Positions 6,987 through 30,454 of a stretch of DNA of 64,000 bases are shown in pieces. Origin of the DNA: Allohoeflea poritis. GTDB taxonomy: Bacteria > Pseudomonadota > Alphaproteobacteria > Rhizobiales > Rhizobiaceae. A program made the translations under genes and the position numbers. Under the pieces are notes generated by a model. That model saw only the letters and a program-made list of their open reading frames with translations. It searched no databases and had not been told where the DNA came from. Each line of letters opens with the position of its first letter. The stretch's first letter is position 1. Where the stretch lies: NCBI RefSeq assembly GCF_027889715.1, contig NZ_JAPJZH010000023.1, forward strand, positions 1 through 64,000. The letters run 5' to 3'.

Positions 6987-8129
6987 CTAGCCGCGATACA
7001 GGACTTCGCCCTGAAAAAGCCGTCGCGCGGTGCGGTAGAGCGTCGCCCGCTCGATGTGCACACCATCCGGTGTTTGGCGCATCTCGGCGTCGACCAGCGT
7101 GACGCCGGACGGGTGTCCGATGCGGATTTCATTGCCCCTGCCGCCCGAAACAAGCTCGGCAGCGATTGTGCCCGGGATACGGCACGCGGCCGCAAGGCAA
7201 AGAGCGCCCGTGATCGGGATGGCCCGATGCGGGCGGCCCATCGAGATCATGCGGCAAAGAATATCCTGATCTGCCGCCTGCAACACCGCCCCCGACAACA
7301 GTTCTGCCTCCGCAGGAGAACCGAGCAACGCGATTTTTGGCTGGCTGGCCTGCACTTCAGCTTCTGCAAGATCGGTGGACATGCCCATGCGCACGGAGGC
7401 GGCCCGCCGGATCCGCTCCAGCCTGTCGAGCAAGCCGGCATCACGCTCGATCTCGTCCGGACTCTCGGCACCCGAGAGGCCGAAATCGGATGCCCGCACG
7501 AAAACGCTCGGATTGGCTGCGTCGACGAGACTTGCCTCGACCGAAGCATCGCCGTCTGTTTCGATCATTTCGGCCGCCTTTCCGCTCGGCAGAATGCCAC
7601 GCGTTCGGGCACCACCAGGGTTTAGAAAGTCAAGCCGGATCGGGGATCCGCTGCCGGAAACCCCGTCTATCCGAAAATCGCCATCGACTTCAGCGCGCCC
7701 ATGCGAAACCTGGAAATGGGCGTGAATGATCTTTTTCGTATTGGTGTTGTGGATGCGCACCGTCATCGGTCCGTTATCGGGATGCGGGACAAGGCCCTCA
7801 TCGACCGCAAACGGTCCAATCGCCGAAGTCATATTGCCGCAATTGCCGGCATAGTCGACGCTCGCCTTGTCCGGTGAAACCTGACAGAAAAGAAAGTCCA
7901 CATCGGCCTCGGGATGGGTTGGCGGTCCGATGACGCAGACCTTGGACAATGAAGAAATGCCGCCGCCCATACCGTCCAGTTGGCGGCCGTATTCATCCGG
8001 CGAACCCATGGCGGCAAGGAAGATATCGACCCATTTTTCGCGATCGGACGGCAGGTCGCCGACATGGAACATAAGCGCCTTCGACGTGCCGCCTCGCATG
8101 AATACACATCTGGTCGCTTGCAGTGGCAT
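6987..8129 (-). CDS. PrpF-family isomerase (aconitate / oxalomesaconate type)
   Basis: 380-residue protein of the PrpF / 4-oxalomesaconate tautomerase family, which shifts double bonds in tricarboxylates such as 2-methyl-aconitate. Hallmarks are RCVFMRGGTSKALMF at residues 7-21, the GGGISSLSKVCVI segment near 55, and the family cysteine motif DYAGNCGNMTSAIGPFAV near residue 92, which belongs to the diaminopimelate-epimerase fold. Start ATG 8129 has GGAG about 12 bases upstream. No methylcitrate genes are nearby. The AraC-type gene is divergent (218-base gap), so it may regulate this gene, but the substrate cannot be assigned. Confidence 0.85.
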   Translation of the reverse strand: MPLQATRCVFMRGGTSKALMFHVGDLPSDREKWVDIFLAAMGSPDEYGRQLDGMGGGISSLSKVCVIGPPTHPEADVDFLFCQVSPDKASVDYAGNCGNMTSAIGPFAVDEGLVPHPDNGPMTVRIHNTNTKKIIHAHFQVSHGRAEVDGDFRIDGVSGSGSPIRLDFLNPGGARTRGILPSGKAAEMIETDGDASVEASLVDAANPSVFVRASDFGLSGAESPDEIERDAGLLDRLERIRRAASVRMGMSTDLAEAEVQASQPKIALLGSPAEAELLSGAVLQAADQDILCRMISMGRPHRAIPITGALCLAAACRIPGTIAAELVSGGRGNEIRIGHPSGVTLVDAEMRQTPDGVHIERATLYRTARRLFQGEVLYRG

Positions 8130-8347
8130 GTTTCGCGAAAACTCCGTGCGGTTCCGTGCTTAAAAAAGGCCATCATAACCTGTCTGGAACGGCACCGAAA
8201 TCGGACATGGAGACAATTCAGCGGCAAACGGACTGTTGCAGCGTATAAGCGGCGGAACTTGGGACAAGAGGCCGCCTTCCTTGTAAGATGATATCCCGGG
8301 TTCCATTTAGATAAGGCGAAAGGGCGAAACCGGACCAGAGCGGTTAT

Positions 8348-9106
8348 ATGGCGGATTTGAGCGCGACATTGACCAACTTTCCGGCGGGCGGCGGCGCGTT
8401 CAAACTGGAGCGCCTGACGATCGGCGTGTTCCGCAACGATCAGCCCACGCACCGGCTCGGTCTCGGCGCCGACAAAACCGAGGGCATTCCCCTGAAGGCT
8501 GATCAGGGCTGGATTTTGCCGCCGGGAGCCACCGGTGTCTGTACCTACGATATTCCGCTCGACGTGATGATGGTGGAAGTCGCGCCCCGCGTGCTTTCGG
8601 AAGTCGGCATGGCCGACCCGACCACCATTGCGCCCGTGGTCGGCGACATCGATCCCCTGACGCTTGAACTTGCGATGGGTGCGGAGAAATTCAACGAGGG
8701 TGGAACGCTCTACCGGGAAACCATGCACCGGGCCCTGGCGGTGCAGCTCACCAACACGCTGCAGACGGTCGAAGGCCGGATCAGATCGATCGAGGATGTG
8801 CGCCTGCGCCGGGTGGTGGAATACATCCATGACAATCTGGCCGAGGACCTGACGCTGGAATCCATGTCGAACCTGGCGGCCATGAGCGGCTTTCATTTCA
8901 GCCGGGCATTCAAGACGGCCACCGGCAAGAGCCCGCTGCAATATGTGATTGCCGAACGCATTGAACTGGCAAAAGTGCTGCTGAAGACAACCGGTCTTAC
9001 GATTTCCGACATCTGCTTCCGGACCGGTTACAACGACGTGTCCCGCTTCGGACAGCATTTCAAGCGCGCCACCGGCATGACCCCGGGCGATTTCCGGGCG
9101 CAATAA
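8348..9106 (+). CDS. AraC-family transcriptional regulator
   Basis: 252-residue activator-type protein. The N-terminal ~140 residues form an unassigned sensing domain (a segment reading ADQGWILPPGATG resembles AraC-type cupin edges). The C-terminal ~100 residues are the AraC double HTH: LRRVVEYIHDNLAEDLTLES, MSGFHFSRAFKTATGKSP, and the second-helix signature ISDICFRTGYNDVSRFGQHF ending ATGMTPGDFRAQ. It is divergent from prpF and 140 bases upstream of the exported hydrolase/NTF2 operon on the same strand; either is a plausible target. The ribosome site is weak. Confidence 0.9.
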   Translation: MADLSATLTNFPAGGGAFKLERLTIGVFRNDQPTHRLGLGADKTEGIPLKADQGWILPPGATGVCTYDIPLDVMMVEVAPRVLSEVGMADPTTIAPVVGDIDPLTLELAMGAEKFNEGGTLYRETMHRALAVQLTNTLQTVEGRIRSIEDVRLRRVVEYIHDNLAEDLTLESMSNLAAMSGFHFSRAFKTATGKSPLQYVIAERIELAKVLLKTTGLTISDICFRTGYNDVSRFGQHFKRATGMTPGDFRAQ

Positions 9107-12870: not shown

Positions 12871-13635
12871 CTATTGATCGGCGATGAGTAGCTGCTCGAT
12901 CTTCGATGCGACGTTTTGCAAAGGCGGAACGCATCGCTTGATGACATCTTTCATGCTCATCGCCTCCGTCAGAACAATGGAATTGATGCAGGCGACAACC
13001 TCGCCGTCCAGCATGATTGCAATACCGACGCCGCGCGTGCTCTCGGAAAGGCTCTGATCATTCTCGGAAAATCCCTGCTCGCTGTAGCGCCTTAGTTCGC
13101 TCTCCAGTCTGGAACGCGCATTGGCATCAGTTGCGCCAACGAAGGCGGCATCGAGGATTTGTGACCTTTTATCGGCGTCAACTTTGGCGAGATAGGCGCG
13201 GCCCAACGCTGAGTCTGTCACGGAAAGGCGCGAGCCGACGGGCCGGTTCAGCGCAAGGGCGCCCGGGGGGCGGCTGGTTTCCAGGATGACCATTGCCTCG
13301 CCGTCAAACACGGCCAGATCGGAGGGCCAGGGCATCATGGTGCGAAACTCGTTCAGGACCGGGGTTGCCAAGGCCACCAGGCGCTGCCCCTGATCGTATC
13401 CCGAGCTGAGTGTCAGCACCTTGGCCGTGACAACATAGCCATCGGTCTTCCGGTCACGGGCAACGAAACCCGCATACTCCAGAGTCTCCAGGTTCCGCAC
13501 GATGGTCGATTTCGAGATGCCGGTGGCACCGTGAAGCGTCCCTACGCTCGCCACCCCCAACCGGTTGATTTCGGTGAGCAGGTTCAAGCCTCGAACGAGG
13601 GCATTGATCGGCGGGTAACTCTTCTTCTTTTCCAA
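12871..13635 (-). CDS. IclR-family transcriptional regulator
   Basis: 254-residue regulator. N-terminal winged HTH: INALVRGLNLLTEINRLGVA, then TGISKSTIVRNLETLEYAGF. The C-terminal effector domain has the IclR profile (GSRLSVTDSALGRAYLA, ENDQSLSESTRGVGIAIMLD, GEVVACINSIVLTEAMSM). The start is TTG at 13635, with AAAGGA about 11 bases upstream and 4 bases after the cupin stop. It is the last gene of the TRAP operon. Its likely operators are the two identical inverted repeats at 17467 and 19454. Confidence 0.9.
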   Translation of the reverse strand: MEKKKSYPPINALVRGLNLLTEINRLGVASVGTLHGATGISKSTIVRNLETLEYAGFVARDRKTDGYVVTAKVLTLSSGYDQGQRLVALATPVLNEFRTMMPWPSDLAVFDGEAMVILETSRPPGALALNRPVGSRLSVTDSALGRAYLAKVDADKRSQILDAAFVGATDANARSRLESELRRYSEQGFSENDQSLSESTRGVGIAIMLDGEVVACINSIVLTEAMSMKDVIKRCVPPLQNVASKIEQLLIADQ

Positions 13636-13638
13636 TTC

Positions 13639-14037
13639 TCAGGCGTCCTTTACGGGGACGTCATTTCGCACGGGAAGCGGCGGGCTGTAAATGATCAAGA
13701 TTTTCAAAGGTTCCGGCCCCAGCGACAAGACATGATGGTCAAGTTTCGGGGGCAGCCGTACGATCGTTCCCGGTGGACAGTCAATGGCGGGCTCATCGGC
13801 CAGTGCGACCTGAGCGATTCCCTGGAGCACATACATCGCCTGATATTCCGTCTCGTGATGGTGCTTGTACGCCTCCCCTCCCGGTGCGATTTCGCCCAGC
13901 ACCATTTCGAATCCCTCACAGAAGGATTTTTCGCAAAGGCGAATATTGACCGTTCCCGCATGGCCGGGAGGGCCATATTTGGCCAGGTCGTTTTGATGCT
14001 CGATAAAACGGTACGGAACGGAGACTCGGTCAGTCAT
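13639..14037 (-). CDS. Single-domain cupin protein
   Basis: 132-residue cupin. Motif 1 appears as GEAYKHHHETEYQAMYVLQG (residues 57-76; His cluster and Glu as metal ligands) and motif 2 as PPGTIVRLPPKLDHHVLSLG. Metal binding is therefore likely. The ATG at 14037 overlaps the dctM stop (ATGA), so translation is coupled to the transporter. Probable role: an isomerase, dioxygenase or ligand-binding accessory for the imported compound. The substrate is unknown. Confidence 0.82.
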   Translation of the reverse strand: MTDRVSVPYRFIEHQNDLAKYGPPGHAGTVNIRLCEKSFCEGFEMVLGEIAPGGEAYKHHHETEYQAMYVLQGIAQVALADEPAIDCPPGTIVRLPPKLDHHVLSLGPEPLKILIIYSPPLPVRNDVPVKDA

Positions 14038-15347
14038 AGGAACACCCGGGTTAGTTGCGGGAAGGCGACGATGAGAAGGATTATGGCAATCATGCCGAAC
14101 ACGAACGGCATGGTGCCGAGGAAGATATCCGCGAGCGTGATATCGGGATTATCAAGACTGGATTTGACCACGTAGGCCGACAGACCCATGGGCGGTGTCA
14201 ACAGGCCGATCTCGGCCGCAATGACGGTGAGTATGCCGAACCAGATTGGATCGGCCGCCGGGAAAGCACTGGCCAGCGGAAGGAAGATCGGGATCATGAT
14301 GAGGATGATCGAAATCGCGTCGATCAGCGTCCCGAGGGCGATAACGATGAGAATGTAGATCAGTATGAGGGCAAGAAAGGACAGCTCGGCCGCCGAGACC
14401 GTGTTGGCCAGGGCGTTCGGCAGGCCCATGATCGACACCATGCGGCTGTAGACCGTCGCTCCGATCACCAGAAGCGAGATCGAGGCCGTGATCTGTCCGG
14501 CCTGCAGCAGGGTTTCCCAAAAGGAAGACCAGTTCAACCGACGGCGCAGGAGCGCAATGACCAGCGCACCGGCGACACCGGCAGCACCCGCTTCGGTCGG
14601 TGTAAAGAACCCTCCGTAAATGCCGCCCAAAACCAAACCGATCAGCACGATCAGCGGCAGGAGCAGCATCAGGGCCTCAAGATTTGTCAGCTCTTCGCGA
14701 TCATCCGCTTCGGTCCGTTCGCTGAAGACGCGGCGCGGAGAGAACCGCGCCATGCCGACAATGATCACGCAGAAAACCGCCGCCAGCAGCAGCCCCGGCA
14801 CAATGCCGGCGACGAACATCGCCCCGACCGATTGCTCGGCGACCAGCGCATAGACAATCAGAAGAAGGCTGGGCGGAATCAGCATGCCGAGAACCGAGCT
14901 GCCCGTGACCACGCCGACGGCAAAACGCCGTTGATAGCCGAGACGGAGCATTTCCGGCACCGCAACGCGGGTAAAGACAGCAGCGGAAGCGATGGAAATT
15001 CCGGTGACAGCGGCAAAAGCTGTGTTGGCAATGACCGTGGCAACGCCCAGCCCGCCGAGAATTCTGTGCAGAAAATGGTTGGCTGCGCGGAAAGTGTCGC
15101 GGCCGATATCCGCCTTTCCGACAAGGAGCCCCATCAGGACGAACAGCGGGACAACGCCGAAGACATAGGATGAGATCGACTCGGTCACCGCCTGCGTCAG
15201 AAGCGTGACCGACAGCGCGAACTTGCCCTTGAATATCCACAGACCCACAAAAGAGACGGCAGCCAGAACAATCGCCACATGCATGCCGAGATAGATCAGT
15301 CCGACAATGGCGCCGACGGATAAAAGCCCCAGCTCCAACCCGCTCAT
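14034..15347 (-). CDS. dctM: TRAP transporter large permease (DctM)
   Basis: 437-residue membrane subunit with about 12-13 helices, the ion-motive channel of a TRAP importer. Typical DctM segments are TGISIASAAVFTRVAVPEM, the GSSVLGMLIPPSLLLIVYAL stretch, the mid-protein FTPTEAGAAGVAGALV, and the second scaffold AAEIGLLTPPMGLSAYVVKS. ATG 15347 overlaps the dctQ stop by ATGA; a longer in-frame start at 15458 lies inside dctQ and is rejected. Works with DctP (16390) and DctQ (15344) to import an organic acid. Confidence 0.93.
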   Translation of the reverse strand: MSGLELGLLSVGAIVGLIYLGMHVAIVLAAVSFVGLWIFKGKFALSVTLLTQAVTESISSYVFGVVPLFVLMGLLVGKADIGRDTFRAANHFLHRILGGLGVATVIANTAFAAVTGISIASAAVFTRVAVPEMLRLGYQRRFAVGVVTGSSVLGMLIPPSLLLIVYALVAEQSVGAMFVAGIVPGLLLAAVFCVIIVGMARFSPRRVFSERTEADDREELTNLEALMLLLPLIVLIGLVLGGIYGGFFTPTEAGAAGVAGALVIALLRRRLNWSSFWETLLQAGQITASISLLVIGATVYSRMVSIMGLPNALANTVSAAELSFLALILIYILIVIALGTLIDAISIILIMIPIFLPLASAFPAADPIWFGILTVIAAEIGLLTPPMGLSAYVVKSSLDNPDITLADIFLGTMPFVFGMIAIILLIVAFPQLTRVFL

Positions 15348-15871
15348 GGTCGCGCACCTTCCTGCGAAAAGGCACGGGACAGATAGCCCACCATGTGAAT
15401 GAGAAACTGTATGCCGGCTGCAAAACTGCCAAGGACGATCACCGCATAGACCGGCCAAACCGGCACCACGAAGAGCCCGTAGACGCCCGCATGTTCCCCG
15501 GCGGTCCAGGCGTCACGCAGTTTGAAGCTCACGCCATAGACCAGCACGGCGAAGAACAACGCGCCGACAAGCGCATATACGGCCTGAAGGAGCGCTTCAA
15601 TCCGCGGCGATCTGTTGCGCAGCCCGTTTGTCAGCAATTCGGTGCGCGCCAAAGCATGCGCGCGCACGGTCTGCCCCACCTGCAAAAAAACCACGGCAAC
15701 GATGGAAAGACTGATCATTTCGGCGACGCCCGCGATCGGCTTTCCCAGAAAGCTGCGGCTGACAATATCGGCGCAAATCAAGGCCGCCATGGCCAGAATG
15801 AGAACCGACCCGATGCCACTCAGACCCGCCATGAGCCGACCCAACCAGGAAGCTTTGGGCGCTTCGCTCAT
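15344..15871 (-). CDS. dctQ: TRAP transporter small permease (DctQ)
   Basis: 175-residue protein with four transmembrane helices. Characteristic features are VLILAMAALICADIVSRSFL near residue 20, GVAEMISLSIVAVVFLQVGQ (helix 2), and the Arg-rich loop HALARTELLTNGL. ATG 15871 overlaps the stop of the osmC-like gene by ATGA, and its own stop overlaps dctM. It joins DctM to form the membrane complex that receives substrate from DctP. Confidence 0.9.
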   Translation of the reverse strand: MSEAPKASWLGRLMAGLSGIGSVLILAMAALICADIVSRSFLGKPIAGVAEMISLSIVAVVFLQVGQTVRAHALARTELLTNGLRNRSPRIEALLQAVYALVGALFFAVLVYGVSFKLRDAWTAGEHAGVYGLFVVPVWPVYAVIVLGSFAAGIQFLIHMVGYLSRAFSQEGARP

Positions 15872-16341
15872 GCCTCGACCAACTCCCAGATCTCTTCGAC
15901 CTCGGTACCGGCGGAGATGAAGGTGGCGGCCGCCGGGCATCGCCAGCGCAGTTGTGACTTCAAATCGTCAAGCCGCTCGGTGTGCCCTCCGACCCTGCCC
16001 GAGATCGTCAAACGAAGCCGTACAAAAGGTGCCGCAAGCTTCTCGGTGCCCGTGTACCCGCGCGGATCGAGATATCCCACAGCCTTCAAAGTCATGCCGG
16101 AGAACGAGATTTTCAGTTCCGCAGCGATCATGTTCATGATGACATTGCTGCAGGCGACATAGCCCGCCAGAAACGCCTCCAGCGGCAACATCCCCTCATT
16201 GTTGCCATGCCGCTCGGGGGGCTCGTCGCAGATCAACGTGAACTCGCGCGCGGCGATATCGGCGCGGGTCGCATTCGGGATATTCGCGGAGACACGAATT
16301 GGGATCTGCATGGGTGCGGCAGCCATTGTTCCAACTTTCAC
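15868..16341 (-). CDS. OsmC/Ohr-fold protein inside the TRAP operon
   Basis: 157-residue OsmC-family protein. The core helix carries GMLPLEAFLAGYVACSNVIM with Cys near residue 63, and a second Cys lies in SQLRWRCPAAATF near residue 135, the arrangement expected for a peroxidatic/resolving pair, although spacing should be checked against a model. It lies between dctP and dctQ, an unusual place for an OsmC protein, and its stop overlaps dctQ (ATGA). It may detoxify a reactive product of the pathway. An ATG at 16326 is an alternative start. Confidence 0.8.
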   Translation of the reverse strand: MKVGTMAAAPMQIPIRVSANIPNATRADIAAREFTLICDEPPERHGNNEGMLPLEAFLAGYVACSNVIMNMIAAELKISFSGMTLKAVGYLDPRGYTGTEKLAAPFVRLRLTISGRVGGHTERLDDLKSQLRWRCPAAATFISAGTEVEEIWELVEA

Positions 16342-16389: not shown

Positions 16390-17448
16390 CTATTGGCCCC
16401 ACGTGCGGACAAGCGCGACACCGTTGTCCGCCTGTTTGGCAATCCATGCGTCCAGGATTTCCTGGGCAGGCAAACCCTTGGCCTCGGCGCGGACGACCCA
16501 ATCCGCAGCGAGGTCCGGCAAGGCTTGTGCCCAGCGCGTCCGCTCTTCCTCAGGCAGGCGCGATTGCATCGCGCCCTGTTCCACCATCTTGCCCTCAGCC
16601 ATCCTGGCGAAGCCCTGCAAGGCTTCCGATACTTTCAGGCGATAGATCTCACCGGCTTCCAGAAAGGCGGTCTGCACCTCCTCCGGAAAGCTGTCCCAGG
16701 TATCCTTGTTGATCGTCAGGGCGCCTACGAATTGCGCACCGAAATCGACACGCGTCAGCATCGGGGCGACCTCATGCAGCTTGTTGGGAAAGATGCCGGA
16801 TGAGAAATTCAGGAGGCCGTCATAAACGCCGGTCTGAATGTTGTTGTAGTGAACCGAAAAATTGCCGTCGACCGCGGTGGCACCGACCCCGTTCAGCCAG
16901 TTGGCAATCGTGCCCGCTCCGCCGATCTTCCGCCCCTTGAGGTCGTCAATCGATGTCACCGGAAAATTCGTGGCAATGTAATGCGTGTCGAGCCCGATCG
17001 GCGCGATAAACACCTGTCCATTGTCTTCCCAGGCCTTTTTCAGCGCGGGATGCTCGTCATGCAATTCGCCGATCATCCGGGTGACCAGTTCCAGATCATC
17101 GCTGCCGAAGGGCGTCATATAGGTGATGTTCTGCAGGATCAGCTTGTCCTGCTCGAAAATCGCATAGACCTGTCCCATTTCGATGAGGCCTGATTCCACC
17201 GCCTCGAGCACACCGCCCACCTTGGCCACCGTACCGCTGTAGGATTCGATCCAGTTGATCGTGTGCTCATCGCCAATGCGCGCATTCACTTCAGGAATGA
17301 ACACGTCGGATATCAGCTTGACCCAGGGCACGACCGGCGGCGAACCGGATGCGACGTTGATGTTGAAGGTTTCGGCCTGCGCCGGCTGGGCGACAAATCC
17401 AAACGATGCCATGGCCAAAGCCGCGATGCCTGATTTGAAAAGATTCAC
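16390..17448 (-). CDS. dctP: TRAP transporter substrate-binding protein (DctP)
   Basis: 352-residue periplasmic binding protein with a signal peptide (1-25, ending AQPAQA). DctP-type features are the N-terminal ETFNINVASGSPPVVPW, ESGLIEMGQVYAIFEQ near 92, FPVTSIDDLKGRKIGG near 178 (start of the ligand clamp), and INKDTWDSFPEEVQTAFLEA near 250. The start is GTG at 17448, with GGGAGGAAG 7 bases upstream. First gene of the operon running to iclR. A perfect inverted repeat lies just upstream of the ribosome site. Ligand unknown, presumably an organic acid. Confidence 0.92.
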   Translation of the reverse strand: MNLFKSGIAALAMASFGFVAQPAQAETFNINVASGSPPVVPWVKLISDVFIPEVNARIGDEHTINWIESYSGTVAKVGGVLEAVESGLIEMGQVYAIFEQDKLILQNITYMTPFGSDDLELVTRMIGELHDEHPALKKAWEDNGQVFIAPIGLDTHYIATNFPVTSIDDLKGRKIGGAGTIANWLNGVGATAVDGNFSVHYNNIQTGVYDGLLNFSSGIFPNKLHEVAPMLTRVDFGAQFVGALTINKDTWDSFPEEVQTAFLEAGEIYRLKVSEALQGFARMAEGKMVEQGAMQSRLPEEERTRWAQALPDLAADWVVRAEAKGLPAQEILDAWIAKQADNGVALVRTWGQ

Positions 17449-17466: not shown

Positions 17467-17483
17467 ATTTCGCTCTGCGAAAT
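17467..17483. promoter_or_regulatory. Candidate IclR operator, site 1
   Basis: Perfect inverted repeat ATTTCG-CTCTG-CGAAAT in the 140-base gap between dctP (18 bases from its start, directly upstream of the ribosome site) and the divergent cysteine-hydrolase-like gene. The same ATTTCG-N5-CGAAAT pattern recurs at 19454. Its size and symmetry suit an IclR dimer; the only IclR gene here is the last gene of the dctP operon. Confidence 0.6.
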
Positions 17484-17588
17484 ACTATTTCAAAAAATTA
17501 TTGCATTTGAAAACCGAGTTTGCAACCCTGCCCCGGAAACCAATATTCAGACCAAGGGCAAGCGCCTGTTCAGAAGGGAAAGAAATTC

Positions 17589-18335
17589 ATGGAACTCGAC
17601 CCGAAGCGCACTGCGATTATCTCGCTGGATGTGCAAAACGACCTGGTAAACAATACAAAGGGCGTTCTTGATTCCGGTATGCTCGACCGGATGGCCGCGA
17701 TTCTCGATGCAGGCCGCAATGCCGGGTCGGAAATCATCCATATCACCGCTTCGGTGCGGCAGGATTTCAAGGATATCCCCAAAGACAGCCCGCTTTGGAT
17801 CATGGTCCGCAGTCAGAAATCGATGGTCATCGGCACCGAAGGGGCGCAACTGCACCACAGCGTCGCGGCACTGCCGGGCGAACTGGTGCTCAACAAAACC
17901 TGCGTCGATCCGTTCCTGACAACCAACCTTGGCCAGGCGCTGAACAATGCGGATGTGAATACGCTGATCATCTTCGGGCTTTGGACCAACTATGTGGTCG
18001 AAGCCACCGCCCGCCACGCCACCGATATCGGCTACCGCGTTTTCGTCGTCAGCGATTGCTGTGCGGGCAATGATGAAGAAAACCACAAATGGGCGATGGA
18101 AAAGATGCTGCCGACGCTTTGCTACGTAACCACCACGGATGATGTCGTGGCGGCGCTTGGCGCCAGACCGGACGCATGCCCCCGGTTTGAAACTTACCGT
18201 TCTGCCCAGGCGACATCGGCATCCGACGGCAACAGATCGGGTGCCGGGTCGTCGGGAAGATCCTCGGCCCCCTCCACCCAGAACGGCGTACGGATCGCCC
18301 GTAGCGAGCCTTCGCTCGGATGCTCTATGTCCTGA
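17589..18335 (+). CDS. Isochorismatase-fold (cysteine-hydrolase family) protein without the Cys
   Basis: 248-residue protein. The isochorismatase fold is clear: AIISLDVQNDLVNN (catalytic Asp near residue 13), VLNKTCVDPFLTTNL (Lys near 100), then LIIFGLWTNYVVEATARHAT. In amidohydrolase members this last motif is TNxCVE; here it is TNYVVE, so the nucleophile Cys is Val. EntB/PhzD-type isochorismatases also lack this Cys, so another reaction is possible. AGAAGGGA precedes ATG 17589. The last ~50 residues are low-complexity and lie antisense to the CoA-transferase 3' end, probably a non-functional extension. It shares the divergent promoter region with dctP. Confidence 0.8.
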   Translation: MELDPKRTAIISLDVQNDLVNNTKGVLDSGMLDRMAAILDAGRNAGSEIIHITASVRQDFKDIPKDSPLWIMVRSQKSMVIGTEGAQLHHSVAALPGELVLNKTCVDPFLTTNLGQALNNADVNTLIIFGLWTNYVVEATARHATDIGYRVFVVSDCCAGNDEENHKWAMEKMLPTLCYVTTTDDVVAALGARPDACPRFETYRSAQATSASDGNRSGAGSSGRSSAPSTQNGVRIARSEPSLGCSMS

Positions 18336-19333
18336 AACAGACCGACATCCGCCAAATGCGCATCGCTCAGGAGATCATCGAGCGAATTGACGGCTGTGCA
18401 AGGAATGTCGAGATCGTGCAGCAGCGATATCCAGTCTGCCGTGGTTCTTTCCGGCATGACCCTGGCAATGACCGCATAAAGCTCACCCACACGCTCGGAC
18501 CGCTGCGCCGCATCCTGCACCCAGTCCGCTCGCGCCAGTTCATGCCTGCCAATGGCCTCAAGAAAACGCATCCAGTGCCTTCCATCATAGGGCAGCACGG
18601 CCACGTAACCGTCCCTGGTGGCATACGGCCTTCTGTGTTCTGAAATGATCCGGTTGTATCCCATGCTCCCCTTGGCGGGCCTGAACCTTTCGCCGGCGAG
18701 ATGCTCCGCAAGCAGGAACGACACCAGGCCTTCGAACATGGGCGCCTCGACCACGCATCCCTTGCCGGTCTTTGTTTGCCTTACAACGCCAGCCAACACC
18801 GCCATAGCCAGATGAAGTCCGCCAATCTTGTCGCAAAGAATCGTGGGCAGGAAACGCGGGTTGCCACTCGAATCGGCGTTCAGATGCGCAATGCCCGAGG
18901 CGGCCTGTATGATGTCGTCATAGGCGGGCCGGTCCGCAAACCGTCCACGGCTGCCATAGCCGGTTGAGACACAATAGACGAGCCGCGGATAGGCCTCACG
19001 CAGGCTTTCGGGGTCCAGCCCAAGCCTCTTTGCCGCTGCGGGCCGCATGTTGTGAACAAGGACATCCGCCGCCTCCAACAGGGCTGTCAGGCGGGCGCGA
19101 TCCTCCGGCTGTTTCAGGTTCAAACCAATCGCGCGCTTGTTGCGATTGAACGCCAGATGCCCGGCACCCATACCTCTGGATCGGGAAGGCTGGACATGTC
19201 GAAAGATATCCCCGCCCGGTGGTTCGACCTTGATGACATCGGCCCCGAAATCCCCGAGATACTGGGTGGCAAACGGTCCCAGGACCACCGAAGTCAAGTC
19301 AAGAACCCGAACGCCTTTCAAAAGGTCATACAC
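18194..19333 (-). CDS. CaiB/BaiF-type CoA-transferase
   Basis: 379-residue family III CoA-transferase, which moves CoA between carboxylic acids. Evidence: LLKGVRVLDLTSVVLGPFAT at the N-terminus, YLGDFGADVIKVEPPGGD, NRNKRAIGLNLKQPEDR near 63-79, and the conserved catalytic-Asp region ADRPAYDDIIQAASG near residue 135-149. The start is GTG (19333) with GGGGGA upstream. The candidate IclR site lies 121 bases upstream. Likely activates the acid taken up by the TRAP system to its CoA ester. Its 3' end overlaps the convergent isochorismatase-fold gene by 142 bases. Confidence 0.88.
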   Translation of the reverse strand: MYDLLKGVRVLDLTSVVLGPFATQYLGDFGADVIKVEPPGGDIFRHVQPSRSRGMGAGHLAFNRNKRAIGLNLKQPEDRARLTALLEAADVLVHNMRPAAAKRLGLDPESLREAYPRLVYCVSTGYGSRGRFADRPAYDDIIQAASGIAHLNADSSGNPRFLPTILCDKIGGLHLAMAVLAGVVRQTKTGKGCVVEAPMFEGLVSFLLAEHLAGERFRPAKGSMGYNRIISEHRRPYATRDGYVAVLPYDGRHWMRFLEAIGRHELARADWVQDAAQRSERVGELYAVIARVMPERTTADWISLLHDLDIPCTAVNSLDDLLSDAHLADVGLFQDIEHPSEGSLRAIRTPFWVEGAEDLPDDPAPDLLPSDADVAWAER

Positions 19334-19453
19334 AGCACATCCCCCATTTGATCATTTGCCGCAAAGATTCGCGCAATATCGGCGATGCAGGCGGTCCGTT
19401 CCGGAGCAAGGGTTGCAAACAAACCGAAGCGGCGCAATGATTTTCAAAACGAT

Positions 19454-19470
19454 ATTTCGCCAAGCGAAAT
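19454..19470. promoter_or_regulatory. Candidate IclR operator, site 2
   Basis: Perfect inverted repeat ATTTCG-CCAAG-CGAAAT, identical in both arms to the site at 17467 but with a different spacer. It lies 121 bases upstream of the CoA-transferase start, in a 293-base gap that holds no gene. A shared operator would place the CoA-transferase in the same regulon as the TRAP operon. Confidence 0.6.
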
Positions 19471-23452: not shown

Positions 23453-23750
23453 AGCGAGTTGTGATTAGATTGATTCATTTGATGGCGGAAAATCGGTCCA
23501 GTCGGCTAGGCGCGTCGCGCAGCGCGATGCAGCGCATCGGGCAAGCGGCGCAACGACGCCGATGGGCCGATTTTCCCCACCCTTTTGAGGAAGAAGCCAT
23601 TAGACAACAAAAGTGAATGGGCCGGACGATTTTGGCCTCTGGCGTCGTTGGCTCGCGCTTGTGGTGGGGTGACACCACGGCGCGCAACCCGCCTAGCCAG
23701 TGACCAAAATCGCCGCGGTCAAATGCGTCAATCTAATCACAACTCGCTCT
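23451..23750. repeat. MITE-like repeat element, copy A
   Basis: 300-bp element with near-perfect terminal inverted repeats: it starts AGAGCGAGTTGTGATTAGAT and ends with the complement, ATCTAATCACAACTCGCTCT. Inner parts are also roughly palindromic (GGCTAGGCG near the left end, CGCCTAGCC near the right). A second copy, reverse-complemented and nearly identical, lies at 39615-39915. No transposase is encoded. The left end provides the TAG stop of denD and the right end provides the last residues and TGA stop of the racemase gene. Confidence 0.85.
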
Positions 23751-24504
23751 GGCGTCCGGTCAGGTTCAGGGTCGGATCGTCCAGCGTCAGTTCGAACCGG
23801 TCCGGCACCAGCCCCTGGTGAAACCAGCGAACAAAGCTGTAGATCGAAAAGACCGGCAGCCCGGTCAACTTCCTGATGTCCCGCGCATAGGGCGTCATGT
23901 TGGTGCATTCGAGCACGATGGCGCCGATATTGTCATGCGACGTGACCAGCGCGCGCGCCGCATCCAGCAGGTCGAGCCGGCAGTCGGCAAAATCGATGCT
24001 CGGCTGATCGTCCAGGATACCGTGGGTAAAGGCGCGGCCCTTGTCGGTGCCGACAATCGGCGTGTCGAGCGGCGCATTGGCGGCACACAGATGGGCCTCC
24101 GACAGGTTGGTCTCCGAGATGGTGATGACGCCGACGCGCTTGCCGCGCGGCAGCATCTGCTGGACCAGCGGGATCTGCATGAGCGACGACGTCGCAACAG
24201 GCACCGGCACCGCGTCCGAGACCCTGTCCTGGATGAGAGCGAGAAAACCGCAATTGGTCGTCAGCCCGTCGCAACCCGAGGCGACGAGATCCTTGGCTGC
24301 GGCGATGAAATCATCGACCAGCTCCAGCGGATTGTTGCGCACCACCTTGTCGGGCGTCGCGCCGCGCACGATCCGGTACTGCACCGGAAACGGCCAAGTA
24401 TAGGCGTTGGCGATGTCGCCATGAATGCGCGGAAACTGCGTTTCAAGCATCATGATGCCGATCGTGGCGCCATAGACCGTTTTTCCACCGAATTCGACGG
24501 ACAT
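23737..24504 (-). CDS. Aspartate/glutamate-racemase superfamily protein
   Basis: 255-residue protein with the two-cysteine racemase/isomerase core: GLTTNCGFLAL (Cys85) and AIVLECTNMTPYARDI (Cys200). Such proteins include hydantoin and Asp/Glu racemases and maleate isomerase; the substrate is not assignable. It follows the gntR gene by 24 bases on the same strand. The final codons (reading Ser-Glu-Leu-stop) lie in the terminal repeat of the MITE-like element, so the native C-terminus may have been altered by insertion. Confidence 0.82.
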   Translation of the reverse strand: MSVEFGGKTVYGATIGIMMLETQFPRIHGDIANAYTWPFPVQYRIVRGATPDKVVRNNPLELVDDFIAAAKDLVASGCDGLTTNCGFLALIQDRVSDAVPVPVATSSLMQIPLVQQMLPRGKRVGVITISETNLSEAHLCAANAPLDTPIVGTDKGRAFTHGILDDQPSIDFADCRLDLLDAARALVTSHDNIGAIVLECTNMTPYARDIRKLTGLPVFSIYSFVRWFHQGLVPDRFELTLDDPTLNLTGRQSEL

Positions 24505-24528
24505 GCATATTCTCCCTGAAAAGGCGGA

Positions 24529-25227
24529 TCAGTCCGCCGGGACGTAAAGTTGCGAATAGGCGATGCGGACGGCTTCCGTTGCCTCCTCGCGCCTGCGTTC
24601 GATATGGCCGCGCATTGCCGCGACGGCGGCCTTTTCATCCCGCGCCGCCAGCGCATTGAGAATGATCCTGTGCGCCGAGAGCTTCGCGCCCTTGTTCCTG
24701 GCGATCTGCTTCTTGGCCAGGATCATCTTCAGATCGACCAGCCGGACATACCGTATCCGGTCATTGATGTTGCGCAGCAGCCGCACGAGTTCGGAGTTCT
24801 TCGACAGCTGCGCAAGACGGATATGGAAATCCTCGTCCATCTCCAGAACCTCCACCGTCGAATCGCTGGTGTTGTAATGCGGTTCTGTGTCGTCAAGATA
24901 GGCAAGGACCGTTGCGATCTCGTCATCCGACGCCCGCTCAACAGACCGTCTGAGCGCCTCGCACTCGATGGCCTGGCGGGCTTCGTAGAGATCGACGATT
25001 TTCTCGGGACTGAGCGAACGGCAGAAGAACCCGCGCCCGTTCTGGAAAGTCAGGAATCCTTCCGCGACAAGCCGGTTCAGCGCCTCCCTCAGCGGCGTGC
25101 GGCTGGCGCCCAGCGCGGTCGACAAAGCGCTCTCATTGATGCGCTCGTCAGGCTTGAATTCAAAGTTCGCAGCCATGTGCCTGACCCGGTCATAGACCCG
25201 GTCGACGCTGCTGCTCGCCTTGCTCAT
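24529..25227 (-). CDS. GntR-family regulator, FadR/FCD type
   Basis: 232 residues. N-terminal winged HTH: NESALSTALGASRTPLREAL and LVAEGFLTFQNGRGFFCRSL. The C-terminal FCD domain is all-helical (IVDLYEARQAIECEALRRSV, EDFHIRLAQLSKNSELVRLL, AHRIILNALAARDEKAAVAA) with Asp/His residues that usually bind a metal and a carboxylate ligand. ATG 25227 has GAGGTG upstream; ATG 25248 and 25311 are less likely. Operon with the racemase gene, divergent from the ThDP enzyme; a GTATAC-centred site between them is the probable operator. Confidence 0.9.
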   Translation of the reverse strand: MSKASSSVDRVYDRVRHMAANFEFKPDERINESALSTALGASRTPLREALNRLVAEGFLTFQNGRGFFCRSLSPEKIVDLYEARQAIECEALRRSVERASDDEIATVLAYLDDTEPHYNTSDSTVEVLEMDEDFHIRLAQLSKNSELVRLLRNINDRIRYVRLVDLKMILAKKQIARNKGAKLSAHRIILNALAARDEKAAVAAMRGHIERRREEATEAVRIAYSQLYVPAD

Positions 25228-25326
25228 TTCCGACACCTCGCTGGTCATCGTCCGTGGGGACCATGCTGGGATGACATATTTTCGCGCCCGTCGCAATTTT
25301 TTTGTCTTCACATCTGCATTTTATGC

Positions 25327-25334
25327 TGTATACA
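25327..25334. promoter_or_regulatory. Candidate GntR (FCD-type) operator
   Basis: Palindrome TGTATACA with flanks CTGTATACAAT, matching the TnGTnnnACnA pattern common for FadR/FCD-type GntR proteins. It lies in the divergent gap between gntR (minus) and the ThDP enzyme (plus); TGTATGAAAT shortly downstream may be a second half-site. Confidence 0.5.
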
Positions 25335-25405
25335 ATTCTGTATGAAATCCAGCAATGGCCTGCGCAGGTGGATCTGCCGCCGGAGCGAAAAAGGAAAATC
25401 GAAGC

Positions 25406-27097
25406 GTGACGAACACCCTCAACGGCGCCGAAGCCATGGTGCGCATGCTGGAGGCGCACGGCGTCCGGCACATATTCGGGCTCTGCGGCGACACCACCCT
25501 GCCCTTCTACGATGCGCTCTACCGGCTTAACCACGGCATCACACATGTGCTGACGCGCGACGAGCGCTCGGCCACATATATGGCCGACGCCTATTCGCGG
25601 GTGACGGGGCGTGTCGGCGTGTGCGAAGGACCGTCCGGCGGCGGCGCGACCTACATCATCCCGGGTCTCATCGAGGCCAGCGAATCCTCCTACGCGGTGC
25701 TTGGCATCACCACAGACATATCGGTCGCCTCCTACGGCAAATACCCACTGACCGAGCTCGACCAGGAAGCCCTGATGCGGCCGCTGACCAAATGGAACAC
25801 GGTCATCCGCCACGCCGATCACATTCCGCGCATGGTGCGCGCCGCCTTCCGGGCCATGACCACAGGGCGGCCCGGATCGGCACATCTGGGCCTGCCCTAC
25901 GATATCCAGTATGACGCGGTGGACACCGACGATGTCTGGGCCGACGGCAAGCTGCAAAGCTATCCGGCCTATCGCGCCGCGCCGGAGCCCGGTGCTGCCG
26001 AAGCAGCCGTCGATGCGATCCTTTCGGCGAAGAATCCGCTCATCGTCTGCGGCGGCGGCATCGTCATTGCCGGCGCCATGGATGAGCTTGACCGCCTGGC
26101 CACTCGCCTCGACATTTCCGTCGCCACATCGATCTCGGGCCAGGGTTCGCTTGCCGACACCCACCCCAATAGCCTTGGCGTAGTCGGCTCGAACGGCGGC
26201 ACCGACGAGACCTGGGAACTGATGGAAGCAGCCGACCTGGTGGTCTTCATGGGCTGCCGCGCCGGCTCCACCACAACATCACGCTGGGAGGCACCCAAGC
26301 CCGGCGCCCGCATCGTGCATTTCGACAGCGACCCGATGGTGATCGGCGCCAACTACCAGGCCGAGGTCGGCGTCTGCGGCGATCTGAAATTGTCGCTGGC
26401 CGCCGTCAACGCGGAACTCGACCGGCACGGCCAGGGCTCGGACACTTTCGGCGGCGCGGAAGTCATTGCCGATATCAAGCGCCGCAAATTCGCGATTTTC
26501 GATCGGCTGGCACAGAGCGACGAGCGTCCCATCAGGCCGGAGCGGGTCATCGACGCAATGATGAAAGTGCTGCCGGAAGACGCGACCGTTCTGTCCGATC
26601 CCGGCACAAGCTGTCCCTACTACTCGGCCTATTTCCGTCAGCCGAAAGAGGGACGCTATTTCATCACAAACCGCGCCCACGGCGCGCTCGGCTATTCCCT
26701 GTCGGCGGCACTTGGCGCGTGGTACGGGCGCCCCTCCAGCAAGATCGTCGCAATGATGGGCGACGGCTCCTTCGGTTTTACCTGCGGTGAACTGGAAACC
26801 GTTTGCCGCGCCCGCGCGCCGATAACCTATATCGTCTTTTCCAATGCGAATTTCGGCTGGATCAAGGCCAGCCAGTACGCCGACACGGACGCACGCTACT
26901 ACAATGTCGATTTCAACCGCACGGACCAGGCCGCCGTGGCTGCGGCCTACGGTGTCAAATCATGGCGTGTCGACGATCCCCAGGACCTTGAAAACGTTCT
27001 TCGGCAGGCGGTCAATCATGACGGCCCTTCACTGGTCGACATTGTCTGCCAGCCGCTCGAGGAAGCCAACGCGCCGGTGCGGCGCTGGATGGGATAA
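25406..27097 (+). CDS. Thiamine-diphosphate enzyme (acetolactate-synthase-like)
   Basis: 563 residues, three-domain ThDP-binding protein. The catalytic Glu is E53 in THVLTRDERSATYMADAYSR. The middle domain begins near 190. The ThDP/Mg motif GDGSFGFTCGELETV followed by SNANFGW is at about residue 451-485. Related enzymes include acetolactate synthase, oxalyl-CoA and benzoylformate decarboxylases; which one cannot be read here. GTG 25406 with AAGGAAAA upstream is favoured; the in-frame ATG 25355 gives an Ala/Lys-rich extension unlike the family. Divergent from gntR-racemase, so likely the same pathway. Confidence 0.85.
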   Translation: MTNTLNGAEAMVRMLEAHGVRHIFGLCGDTTLPFYDALYRLNHGITHVLTRDERSATYMADAYSRVTGRVGVCEGPSGGGATYIIPGLIEASESSYAVLGITTDISVASYGKYPLTELDQEALMRPLTKWNTVIRHADHIPRMVRAAFRAMTTGRPGSAHLGLPYDIQYDAVDTDDVWADGKLQSYPAYRAAPEPGAAEAAVDAILSAKNPLIVCGGGIVIAGAMDELDRLATRLDISVATSISGQGSLADTHPNSLGVVGSNGGTDETWELMEAADLVVFMGCRAGSTTTSRWEAPKPGARIVHFDSDPMVIGANYQAEVGVCGDLKLSLAAVNAELDRHGQGSDTFGGAEVIADIKRRKFAIFDRLAQSDERPIRPERVIDAMMKVLPEDATVLSDPGTSCPYYSAYFRQPKEGRYFITNRAHGALGYSLSAALGAWYGRPSSKIVAMMGDGSFGFTCGELETVCRARAPITYIVFSNANFGWIKASQYADTDARYYNVDFNRTDQAAVAAAYGVKSWRVDDPQDLENVLRQAVNHDGPSLVDIVCQPLEEANAPVRRWMG

Positions 27098-27135
27098 TGC
27101 GACGTTTCATCGACCTGCTATTCGATACTTTCCGG

Positions 27136-28041
27136 CTATCCGCGCCGCGTGGCGGCGTAAAGCCGCAGTTCGTCCAGCAGCACGTCCAGAAACTGGCTGC
27201 CCAGCGACGACAGCGGCCGGGCCCGCGACGTAATCACGGCCAGATCGAGAAGCACCGCCGGCCGGAAAGGTCGGGTGACAAAGCCGCCTTGGTGATCGAA
27301 ATTCAGCGAGAACGGATCCAGCAGAGCAACACCCATACCCTCCTGGACAAAGCTGAGCACATTCTTGAAAAGATGCGTATGCACCTTGGTGTGCCAGGGC
27401 ACGCCGGCATGCTGAAACGCCTCGCGCGTACGCCGATGGGTCATGTGGTCCGGTCCCATCACGATGAAGGGCTCGGGGGCCAGCAGATCAGGTGTCAGAA
27501 CATCGTACCGCGCCAGCGGGCTGCCCTCGGGAAGCGCAAGCAGGGTCTCCACCTGGACGACATGACTGTCGAAGGCATCGTAGGTGAGCGGCATCTCGCA
27601 AACACCGATCTCGAAGAGACCCGCCAGAACCCATTCCTGGATCTTCGTCGAATATTGCGACTGGAAGGAAATCGACATGTCGGGCCGGTCCGCGGCGAAG
27701 CGCGCGATCAGTTTCGGCATGAAGCCGAAGGACAGGGCATGCGGCGAAGCCACCTGCAACTGGCCCGCCTGCTTGTTCTGCAGGTCGGATACCGCCTGCG
27801 CGACATGATCCAGACCGCGAACCACCGTGTCGACTTCCTGGAAGAGCACACCGGCCTCCGGTGTCGGCACCAGCCGGCCCTTGGAGCGCTCGAAGAGTTT
27901 CAACCGGGTTTGTCGCTCCAGTTGCGACAGGAGATTGGAGATGCCGGGCTGCGAGATGCCGAGTTGTTCGGCGGCACCGGTCACGGTGCCGGTTTCGACG
28001 ATGGCGTGAAAAGCCTGCAACTGACGGAAGCGAAGCGACAT
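27136..28041 (-). CDS. LysR-family transcriptional regulator
   Basis: 301 residues. N-terminal LysR HTH: LRFRQLQAFHAIVETGTVTG, AEQLGISQPGISNLLSQLER. The C-terminal periplasmic-binding-like effector domain follows (GQLQVASPHALSFGFMPKL, WVLAGLFEIGVCEMPLTYD). ATG 28041 matches the family N-terminus; ATG 28056 adds five residues. It is divergent from the FAD oxidoreductase/TRAP operon with a 148-base gap, the usual arrangement for a LysR activator of the divergent operon. An AT-rich stretch around 28070-28095 (TGTACATATGTTTGTA) may be its binding site. Confidence 0.9.
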   Translation of the reverse strand: MSLRFRQLQAFHAIVETGTVTGAAEQLGISQPGISNLLSQLERQTRLKLFERSKGRLVPTPEAGVLFQEVDTVVRGLDHVAQAVSDLQNKQAGQLQVASPHALSFGFMPKLIARFAADRPDMSISFQSQYSTKIQEWVLAGLFEIGVCEMPLTYDAFDSHVVQVETLLALPEGSPLARYDVLTPDLLAPEPFIVMGPDHMTHRRTREAFQHAGVPWHTKVHTHLFKNVLSFVQEGMGVALLDPFSLNFDHQGGFVTRPFRPAVLLDLAVITSRARPLSSLGSQFLDVLLDELRLYAATRRG

Positions 28042-28189
28042 GCGGGAACATATCACCTGAAGTTATGGGTTGTACATATGTTTGTATTTGAAATGATGAA
28101 CTTCGGCTGGCAATCTGTGCCTTTGAAGCAAGGCGATCCGGCTCGGGCGGCAAAAGCCGCGAAGATGGTTTTGAGTTGACGGGAGCAGC

Positions 28190-29431
28190 ATGAGCGCAGC
28201 CAAGCACATCGTTGTCATCGGCGCCGGGATCGTTGGTGTGTCCGCGGCGATCTGGCTCACAAGGTCGGGGCTGCAGGTCACGCTGATCGACAGGGCCGCG
28301 CCCGGCCAGGGCACGTCCTTTGGCAATGCGGGTGTTCTTGCGTCCTGTTCGGTCGTTCCGGTGACGGCGCCCGGCCTCGCCTTCAAGGGGCCGAAACTGC
28401 TTCTCGACCCCTCATTCCCGCTCTTCCTGCGCTGGTCCTATCTTCCCCGGCTCGCGCCGTGGCTGCTGCGTTATCTTCGCCACGCCAACGACAACGATAC
28501 GCGCCGCATCTCCAATGGCTTGACGCCGATCGTTGGCGACAGCGTCGAACAACATAAAGCGCTTTCTGAGGATGGTGACGCAAGCCGCTACATGATCCCC
28601 TCGGACTACACGTTCGCCTATGCGGACCGGGCGGCCTTCGACGCCGACGCCTATACCTGGCAACTGCGCCGGGCCGCCGGTTTCGAGCCTGAGATCCTGG
28701 AGGGCGGGAGCGTACAGGAATACGACGCCGCGTTCGGCCCGGCGGTCGGGCTGCTCGCCGTCATGCACGATCATGGCTACATTACCGATCCCGGCGGCTA
28801 TGTCGCCGCGCTCGCCGAAACCTTCAAGGGCATGGGCGGACGGTTTGTCACCGCGGAGGTCAAGGATTTCGACCTCAGCGGCGGCGCCGTGCGGGCCGTC
28901 CTGACGGATCAGGGCCGCTTCGATTGCGACCATGTGGTCCTCAGCGCCGGAATCTGGTCGAAACCGCTTGCCGCCAAGCTCGGGCTCAAAGTGCCGCTGG
29001 AATCGGAACGCGGCTACCACATCGTGTTCAAGCAACCGGCAAACGGCCCGAAATCCCCGGCCATGGTCGCGGCGGGAAAATTCGTGGCGACACCCATGGA
29101 CGCCGGACTGCGTTGCGCCGGCGTCGTCGAATTCGGCGGTCTTGAAGCCGGCCCTTCGAAGGCTCCGCTCAGGCTTCTGAGAAAGACAGTCGAAAACACA
29201 TTTCCCGAACTGACCTATGCCGACAGCGAAGAATGGCTCGGCCACCGGCCCGCGCCGACGGACAGCCTGCCACTGATCGGCGAGATCGGGCAGAGCGGCG
29301 TGTATACTGCCTTCGGGCATCATCACATTGGGCTTACGGGTGGGCCCAAGACAGGGCGGCTTGTCGCCGGCCTCATAGCGGGCGACAGGCCGAATATCGA
29401 CTTGTCCGTCTACAACCCGAACCGATTTTAA
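28190..29431 (+). CDS. FAD-dependent oxidoreductase, DadA / glycine-oxidase type
   Basis: 413 residues of the DAO superfamily. FAD motif HIVVIGAGIVGVSAAIWLT at residues 6-24 then LIDRAAPGQGTSFGNAG, the signature of D-amino-acid dehydrogenases. The C-terminal end has EEWLGHRPAPTDSLPLIGEI and FGHHHIGLTGGPKTGRLVAG, contributing to FAD binding. Likely oxidises a secondary or D-amino acid to the oxo acid. GGAGCAGC precedes ATG. First gene of the operon with dctP2, dctQ2 and dctM2, so its substrate is probably what the TRAP system imports. Confidence 0.85.
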   Translation: MSAAKHIVVIGAGIVGVSAAIWLTRSGLQVTLIDRAAPGQGTSFGNAGVLASCSVVPVTAPGLAFKGPKLLLDPSFPLFLRWSYLPRLAPWLLRYLRHANDNDTRRISNGLTPIVGDSVEQHKALSEDGDASRYMIPSDYTFAYADRAAFDADAYTWQLRRAAGFEPEILEGGSVQEYDAAFGPAVGLLAVMHDHGYITDPGGYVAALAETFKGMGGRFVTAEVKDFDLSGGAVRAVLTDQGRFDCDHVVLSAGIWSKPLAAKLGLKVPLESERGYHIVFKQPANGPKSPAMVAAGKFVATPMDAGLRCAGVVEFGGLEAGPSKAPLRLLRKTVENTFPELTYADSEEWLGHRPAPTDSLPLIGEIGQSGVYTAFGHHHIGLTGGPKTGRLVAGLIAGDRPNIDLSVYNPNRF

Positions 29432-29464
29432 CCACCGTCAAATGCTTCAAACCGGGAGGACCCA

Positions 29465-30454
29465 ATGAAAGCATCAATCAAGAAACACGCAGCAACGCTG
29501 ATGGTCTCGGCAGCACTCGCCGTTACCGCAAGCGCAGCCTTCGCGGAAAAGTGGGATATGCCGCTTGCCTATTCGGCAACCAATTTCCACTCGGCGACGG
29601 CCGCTGAATTCGCCAAGTGCATCACGACCGGCACCGGCGGCGCCATCGAGGTGGTCACCCACCCGTCCGGTTCGCTCTTTAAGGGCGCCGACATCAAGCG
29701 CGCCATCCAGACCGGCCAGGCGCCGATCGGCGAACGTCTCCTGTCCGGGCACCAGAACGAGAACGCCGTCTTCGGCGTTGACTCGGTTCCGTTCCTGGCG
29801 ACCTCGTTCGACGATGCCGCCAAGCTCTGGAAAGCAGCCAAGCCGACGATGGAAAAGATCCTCGACGAGCAGAATCTTGTGCTGCTGTATTCCGTACCCT
29901 GGCCACCGCAGGGCCTTTACTTCAAGCAGGAAGTGAACTCGGTCGCCGACATGGAAGGCATCAAGTTCCGCTCCTACAACAATGCCACGGCACGGCTTGC
30001 CGAACTGACGGGCATGCTGCCGGTTCAGATCGAGGCCGCCGAGATTTCGCAGGCCTTCGCCACCGGCGTTGCCGATGCAATGGTCTCGTCCGGTTCCACC
30101 GGCTATGACCGCAAGGTCTGGGAGAGCCTGACGCATTTCTATGAAGTCGACGCCTGGCTGCCGCGCAACTATGTCATGATCAACAAGGATGTGTGGAACG
30201 GTCTTGACGAGGCCCAGCACAACATCATCAAGGGCTGCGCGGAACTCGCCGAATATGCCGGAACATGGCGTGCGGTCGAATACACCCAGTTCACGCTGAA
30301 CGGTCTTCGCGCCGGCGGCATGACGGTCGGGCCGGCAGGCGAGAGCCTGCAGGGCGAACTCAAGGAAATCGGTGCGACCATGGCCGCCGAGTGGCTTGAA
30401 AACGCGGGCGAAGACGGCAAGGCCATCATCGACGCCTACAATTCCATGCAGTAG
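29465..30454 (+). CDS. dctP: TRAP transporter substrate-binding protein (DctP), second system
   Basis: 329 residues with a signal peptide (1-27, ending SAAFA). DctP features: KWDMPLAYSATNFHSATAAE, GADIKRAIQTGQAPIGERLL, FKQEVNSVADMEGIKFRSYN near 155-174 (ligand-clamp Arg region), and NKDVWNGLDEAQHNIIKGCA. GGGAGGACCC precedes ATG 29465. Located 33 bases after the FAD oxidoreductase. Only weakly similar to the first DctP in the window, so a different ligand is likely. Confidence 0.92.
   Translation: MKASIKKHAATLMVSAALAVTASAAFAEKWDMPLAYSATNFHSATAAEFAKCITTGTGGAIEVVTHPSGSLFKGADIKRAIQTGQAPIGERLLSGHQNENAVFGVDSVPFLATSFDDAAKLWKAAKPTMEKILDEQNLVLLYSVPWPPQGLYFKQEVNSVADMEGIKFRSYNNATARLAELTGMLPVQIEAAEISQAFATGVADAMVSSGSTGYDRKVWESLTHFYEVDAWLPRNYVMINKDVWNGLDEAQHNIIKGCAELAEYAGTWRAVEYTQFTLNGLRAGGMTVGPAGESLQGELKEIGATMAAEWLENAGEDGKAIIDAYNSMQ

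Follow-up and report, generated by a model that had tools for sequence, protein, structure and literature searches.

A conserved three-box operator accompanies a probable local IclR regulon of TRAP transporter, hydrolase and CoA-transferase genes in Allohoeflea poritis

A gene cluster of Allohoeflea poritis (Rhizobiaceae) with a TRAP transporter operon, a divergent hydrolase gene and a CoA-transferase gene contains two closely similar inverted repeats, raising the question of whether these transcripts are governed jointly and by which protein. The cluster lies within the window, i.e., the whole stretch of 64,000 nucleotides analysed here (contig NZ_JAPJZH010000023.1, positions 1 to 64,000). 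The first-pass annotation had read the repeats as ATTTCG-N5-CGAAAT operators of a probable regulon of IclR, whose gene closes the dctP operon, linking import, CoA activation and accessory enzymes in one pathway. The dctP operon runs dctP, osmC, dctQ, dctM, cupin, iclR, and from osmC onward the junctions are 4-bp overlaps or a 3-bp gap, so that the open reading frames bear out the terminal position of iclR. The search that identified the OsmC domain used 15868-16317, 8 codons short. The hydrolase frame is longer in the window (248 aa) than in the related clusters G226 (192 aa) and G004 (215 aa), and its tail is antisense to the coaT 3' end, with a tail-to-tail overlap of 142 bp (18194-18335).

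Table 1. Features of the cluster, its relatives and a second IclR system; unprefixed positions refer to the window.
Feature	Location	Strand	Remarks
Operator 1, boxes 1+2	17467..17483	+	ATTTCGC-TCT-GCGAAAT; centre 27 bp 5' of dctP start, 114 bp 5' of hydrolase start
Operator 1, box 3	17487..17491	+	ATTTC; repeats box 1 in direct orientation at 20 bp
Operator 2, boxes 1+2	19454..19470	-	ATTTCGC-TTG-GCGAAAT toward coaT; centre 129 bp 5' of coaT start
Operator 2, box 3	19446..19450	-	GTTTT
Predicted hydrolase promoter	17501..17529	+	TTGCAT-N17-AACCCT, TG before -10; conservation
Predicted dctP promoter	17497..17525	-	TTGCAA-N17-AATAAT, TG; 9/12 consensus matches and conservation
Predicted coaT promoter	19409..19437	-	TTGCGC-N17-AACCCT; conservation
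iclR	12871..13635	-	254 aa; last gene of operon, presumed regulator; IclR_C 9.5e-13, HTH_IclR 1.2e-5
cupin protein gene	13639..14037	-	Cupin_2 match
dctM	14034..15347	-	TRAP large permease; domain and profile matches
dctQ	15344..15871	-	TRAP small permease; domain match
osmC	15868..16341	-	OsmC-like protein; GTG start 16341 or ATG 16326; domain match
dctP	16390..17448	-	TRAP substrate-binding protein; first gene of operon; domain and profile matches
hydrolase gene	17589..18335	+	isochorismatase-like cysteine hydrolase, divergent from dctP; domain match 1.4e-37
coaT	18194..19333	-	family III CoA-transferase; domain match 3.5e-104
G226 cluster	L023		another family of the order; iclR 82%, dctP 88% identical to window
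G004 cluster	L019		same family as window; iclR 71%, dctP 82% identical to window
G565 cluster	L024		third family of the order; iclR 58%, dctP 78% identical to window
Second iclR	C52:7561-8352	-	two near-identical three-box sites, region 7389-8436 (L040)

Both repeats are present where the first-pass annotation had placed them and both are perfect: ATTTCGCTCTGCGAAAT lies between dctP and the divergent hydrolase gene, and ATTTCGCCAAGCGAAAT is found 120 bp upstream of coaT. The arms are identical and the spacers differ, as had been described, but the true form is 7-3-7 with spacers TCT and CAA rather than 6-5-6. Across the genome (5,575,488 bases, 54 contigs), exact ATTTCG-N5-CGAAAT occurs only twice, both times at promoters of the cluster, and is thus not scattered. 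With one mismatch 22 further places were found; all of these are more than 5 kb from any IclR_C match and they were kept out of the regulon. The reversed pattern gave 2 matches with up to one mismatch, compared to 24 for the motif itself, although this is an imperfect control since its CG content differs. Under a first-order model based on the window composition, the expected number of exact matches is 0.95 for the genome and 0.0003 for a 2-kb stretch. The window has 42 copies of each arm where 24 are expected, so the genome expectation may be nearer 2.8. Allowing two mismatches, the window contains 7 palindrome matches, an unremarkable total reached by 14 of 100 shuffles. Rarity is therefore a weak argument, as some one to three exact matches would arise in the genome by chance alone; the weight of the case lies in position, two promoters of the same cluster carrying a copy each within 2 kb, and in conservation.

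Three further genomes of the order carry all eight genes (coaT, hydrolase, dctP, osmC, dctQ, dctM, cupin and iclR). They were the only genomes besides the window's own with dctP matches at E <= 1e-120 when 394 family, 397 order, 385 class and 398 phylum genomes, in overlapping draws, were searched with at most five candidates scored per genome. At this threshold, matches were obtained in 2 of the 394 family genomes (the window's own and G004), in 3 of the 397 order genomes, the own included, and in none of the 7 other same-genus genomes among those listed. A search at 1e-100 among the kin of G226 (1 of 2 genomes) and G565 (1 of 20) returned only these genomes themselves and no new cluster. IclR, searched at 1e-40 in 199 family genomes, matched in the own genome, in G004 and in G065 (41% identity). 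The 13-kb contig of G065, which begins 846 bases before the iclR homolog, gave no match to any of nine other window proteins tried. Plasmid homologs reached at most 38.4% identity for IclR and 43% for dctP, with none for the hydrolase at 1e-40, and the eight-gene unit was absent from the annotation within 7 kb in the three of 15 dctP-homolog plasmid records examined. The unit is thus rare, and its patchy distribution suggests that it was moved between genomes as a whole by transfer.

The inheritance of all eight genes together supports the proposed single pathway, with one reservation: coaT of G565 (L024 8312-9502) shares just 43-45% identity with the other three, whereas G565 dctP shares 77-81%. 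This slot may therefore hold a different family III enzyme, a related replacement. When 14.8-16 kb surrounding each cluster were compared with the remaining window ORFs of at least 100 aa, matches at 1e-10 were confined to frame shadows of cluster genes and to a paralogous dctM located at 31 kb, leaving iclR as the sole regulator for which joint inheritance with the unit was seen. The genes beyond iclR in G004 (L019 10836-15503) resemble, by eye, those of a 2-oxoacid dehydrogenase complex; they are read toward iclR and match no window ORF.

The site between dctP and the hydrolase gene is kept in all three other clusters, as had been anticipated for a genuine operator. The core RTTTC-N7-GAAAY occurs exactly once in each of the four dctP/hydrolase spacers, accompanied by RTTTY at 20 bp. 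The sites of G226, GTTTCGCTGTACGAAAC, and G565, GTTTCACTGAATGAAAC, are mispaired at 7/11, that of G004, GTTTCGCTCTGCGAAAT, has a single mispair at 1/17, and the copy upstream of G226 coaT one at 6/12. Base changes affecting both sides of a pair, as in the G226 and G565 sites, were also observed, A-T to G-C at pair 1/17 in two copies and G-C to A-T at pair 6/12 in one, and with these compensating changes included the core is found in six of six modules. In a four-way alignment of the spacers, few columns outside the module are invariant. In dinucleotide shuffles of the four spacers, the core arose at frequencies of 0.0014-0.0036 and all three boxes together at no more than 0.00005; for the two coaT upstream stretches, the corresponding values were 0.0021-0.0026 and 0 in 10,000. 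These figures are optimistic in that the pattern was derived from the same sequences.

Where coaT immediately follows the hydrolase gene, as in G004 and G565, there is a single site, and a search from dctP to coaT for a second, allowing one mismatch to the core, found none. In the window and in G226, coaT is inverted and possesses its own complete second module. Operator number thus tracks gene order and the site goes with coaT, which amounts to a natural experiment: the gene order changed and the operator-promoter module went with the gene. As the two genomes with the single-site layout are the more distant ones by iclR identity, the arrangement with two sites is probably derived. The sample comprises four clusters and six modules from one order. 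Two further palindromes, one with two mismatches in G226 near the cupin/dctM junction (L023:5787) and one with a single mismatch in G065 (L025:8882), were regarded as chance occurrences.

While the palindromes had been described correctly, the first-pass annotation had missed a third half-site and, beyond the palindrome, the duplication of the whole operator-promoter module. When aligned along hydrolase or coaT transcription, box 3 reads RTTTY at positions 21-25 in all six modules (RTTTC in five). Behind it come A-rich bases and then TTGC, located at position 34 or 35; TGCAA, as part of TTTGCAA-N3-T, lies exactly 20 bp further along. Together these form TTGC-N19-AANNNT with a TG preceding the second hexamer, an arrangement that shows the 17-bp spacing of a sigma-70 promoter toward hydrolase and coaT and whose TTGC, TG, AA and final T are invariant in all six modules. 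The predicted -10 elements in this direction are poor (AACCCT in three modules, AACGTT, AAGCCT and AAGGGT). Relative to the predicted hydrolase and coaT starts, the palindrome would be located at about -60 and box 3 at about -47, ending 8-9 bp before the -35 element. In the window, this block taken in the opposite direction provides the predicted dctP promoter; the predicted dctP and hydrolase promoters overlap head-on, and box 3 is positioned at the predicted dctP transcription start. A consensus promoter scan gave 2 promoter-like sites compared to 2.1 in shuffles; the predicted hydrolase and coaT promoters, being too weak, were not listed. The second scan site (17493-17464, minus strand) crosses the operator and represents an alternative dctP promoter, at which IclR would likewise be positioned to repress. 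The backward promoter has retained its TG in the four divergent modules and lost it in the two coaT modules, as expected if only the divergent ones need a promoter in this direction. However, the backward -10 bases are largely kept at coaT as well, where no gene is read that way. A promoter reading leaves this unexplained, and the block may not be only a promoter. The promoter assignments are putative, drawing on consensus and conservation.

The regulator belongs to the IclR family, with scores of 25.4 bits for HTH_IclR (cut-off 22) and 48.5 bits for IclR_C (cut-off 24). The best NCBIfam models were NF007341 (1.6e-46) and its relatives, followed by PcaR/PcaU/PobR (TIGR02431, 9.9e-30), for which membership was rejected at 103.6 bits against a cut-off of 284.75. 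As all NCBIfam scores are below their cut-offs, the protein is assigned to the family only. In the survey by Suvorova and Gelfand (2021, PMC8222616), WTTYCRYW3RYGRAAW is one of four group 1 types of IclR-family sites. The window arms ATTTCGC and GCGAAAT fit its arms letter by letter, and across the six modules TTTC, GAAA, Y7, R11 and Y12 are found in all and R6 in five. The outer base is A in three modules, including both window sites, and G in the other three, which is closer to GTT-11-AAC than to WTT-11-AAW (PMC8222616). Unlike in the published type, the centre is in no module composed of A and T only (TCT, TTG, TGT, ATG, TCT, TGA). The operators are therefore like this type but not strictly filed in the WTT-11-AAW subgroup, although some listed sites (CatR) also have a non-W centre (PMC8222616).

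The same survey predicts three-box sites in 32 orthologous groups of the family, and the spacing of boxes 2 and 3 here corresponds to the N1 form of its group 2 consensus (PMC8222616). As in the three-box sites of PcaU, PobR and HmgR, two inverted boxes are accompanied by an external third one oriented as box 1: in all six modules box 3 repeats box 1 directly and opposes box 2. According to the survey, the zone from -20 to -80 relative to the gene start holds most site centres, with -22 the commonest value (PMC8222616). Only the dctP distance of 27 bp falls inside this zone, whereas those of hydrolase (-114) and coaT (-129) are outside. Overall, the conserved sites, the site that follows coaT and the resemblance to published sites support the regulon that had been proposed. 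The type of switch is already described, and the local IclR regulon is a further example; it differs from the PcaU, PobR and HmgR systems in serving a TRAP transporter, CoA-transferase and hydrolase unit, where a role as activator is putative. The survey also predicts alternative dimerisation within the family and calls for experimental validation (PMC8222616), and the fixed spacing of the three boxes makes this prediction easily testable on short fragments.

IclR_C domains are encoded by 15 genes of the genome (16 matches, two in one frame). A scan for the three-box form with up to two mismatches yielded 14 places, compared to 4 (2 forward, 2 reverse) for the reversed pattern, and only the two cluster operators matched without mismatch. 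On contig C52, another iclR gene is flanked by the sole place with one mismatch and by one of those with two, so that the pattern, unprompted, picks out a second IclR system; none of the remaining ten places is near an IclR_C match. One C52 site precedes a divergent Asp/Glu racemase-like gene, which is followed by a family 5 binding protein gene, and the other an M28-type peptidase gene. This system resembles that of the cluster in combining an iclR gene with two near-identical three-box sites, but has different arms (GTTTCA ... TAAAAC), other targets and a regulator only 23% identical to the cluster IclR.

As the site is conserved in all three other clusters, each with iclR, a real local IclR regulon is indicated, and we consider it likely that the cluster IclR would bind both three-box operators and control all three transcripts. 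The two palindromes would represent the strong pairs of these operators, at which IclR, probably as a pair of dimers, would occupy the inverted boxes 1 and 2 as well as box 3. Bound in this way, the protein would cover the start of the dctP...iclR transcript and may repress the transporter operon and its own synthesis. PcaU and PobR activate with inducer. By analogy, the IclR complex at about -60/-47 of the hydrolase and coaT promoters would, with inducer, more probably activate than simply leave, and we give activation at these two genes slightly less than an even chance. Binding by the cluster IclR, the sign of regulation and the existence of an inducer are what we infer from these arrangements. 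A more elaborate version appears rather unlikely as a whole: the three-box site might act as a two-way switch between head-on promoters, blocking the transporter-regulator transcript and activating the enzyme transcript from -60, and switch and both promoters might have been copied as a cassette, keeping the inverted coaT in the regulon. Alternatively, IclR at both operators may silence all three transcripts and leave upon induction without any activation. This is quite possible, if doubtful, as the dctP site is repressor-like, with its centre near the commonest published distance (PMC8222616) and box 3 on the predicted transcription start, and co-induction of transporter and enzymes would be sensible for catabolism; at hydrolase and coaT, however, the operator is upstream of the predicted -35 elements, a position typical of activation, and the poor -10 elements argue in the same direction.

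That another regulator, e.g., one of the IclR paralogs, occupies the operators is improbable. Such paralogs are numerous and IclR-family sites resemble one another in the survey (PMC8222616), but within the genome the exact sites are confined to this cluster, the cluster iclR is the sole regulator gene seen travelling with them in four genomes, and the one paralog examined, that on C52, has its own pair of sites. Very improbable, too, is a role of the repeats as RNA hairpins, i.e., as terminators or mRNA stability elements: one repeat (19470-19454) is among 10 listed as terminator-like, compared to 7.1 in shuffles, whereas the other is not listed, both are upstream of genes, the third half-site is outside the hairpin in all six modules, and for hydrolase and coaT the repeat would precede the predicted transcript. 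Hardly any probability remains for chance palindromes that are conserved merely through related flanking DNA. Besides the exact matches expected per genome, a perfect 6-5-6 repeat of any sequence appears in 3-10% of shuffled spacers; against this stand the scarcity of invariant columns outside the module, the compensating changes within the core and the same module in a different place, upstream of coaT.

Literature searches aimed at the eight-gene unit listed nothing on it, and the modules described here provide a set of operators footprinted across orthologous clusters for its IclR regulator; an earlier prediction may be contained among the 181 groups of Suvorova and Gelfand (PMC8222616). 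The closest solved structures are too distant to name a substrate of the unit. Plasmid dctP homologs adjoin genes for cyclase and fumarylacetoacetate hydrolase or for a monooxygenase, neighbours that give at most a hint of aromatic or carboxylic acids as substrate. A second catabolic-looking stretch is present at 23737-30454 of the window, where Pfam matches identified an Asp/Glu racemase-like gene, a GntR/FCD regulator, a thiamine-diphosphate enzyme and another TRAP DctP protein.
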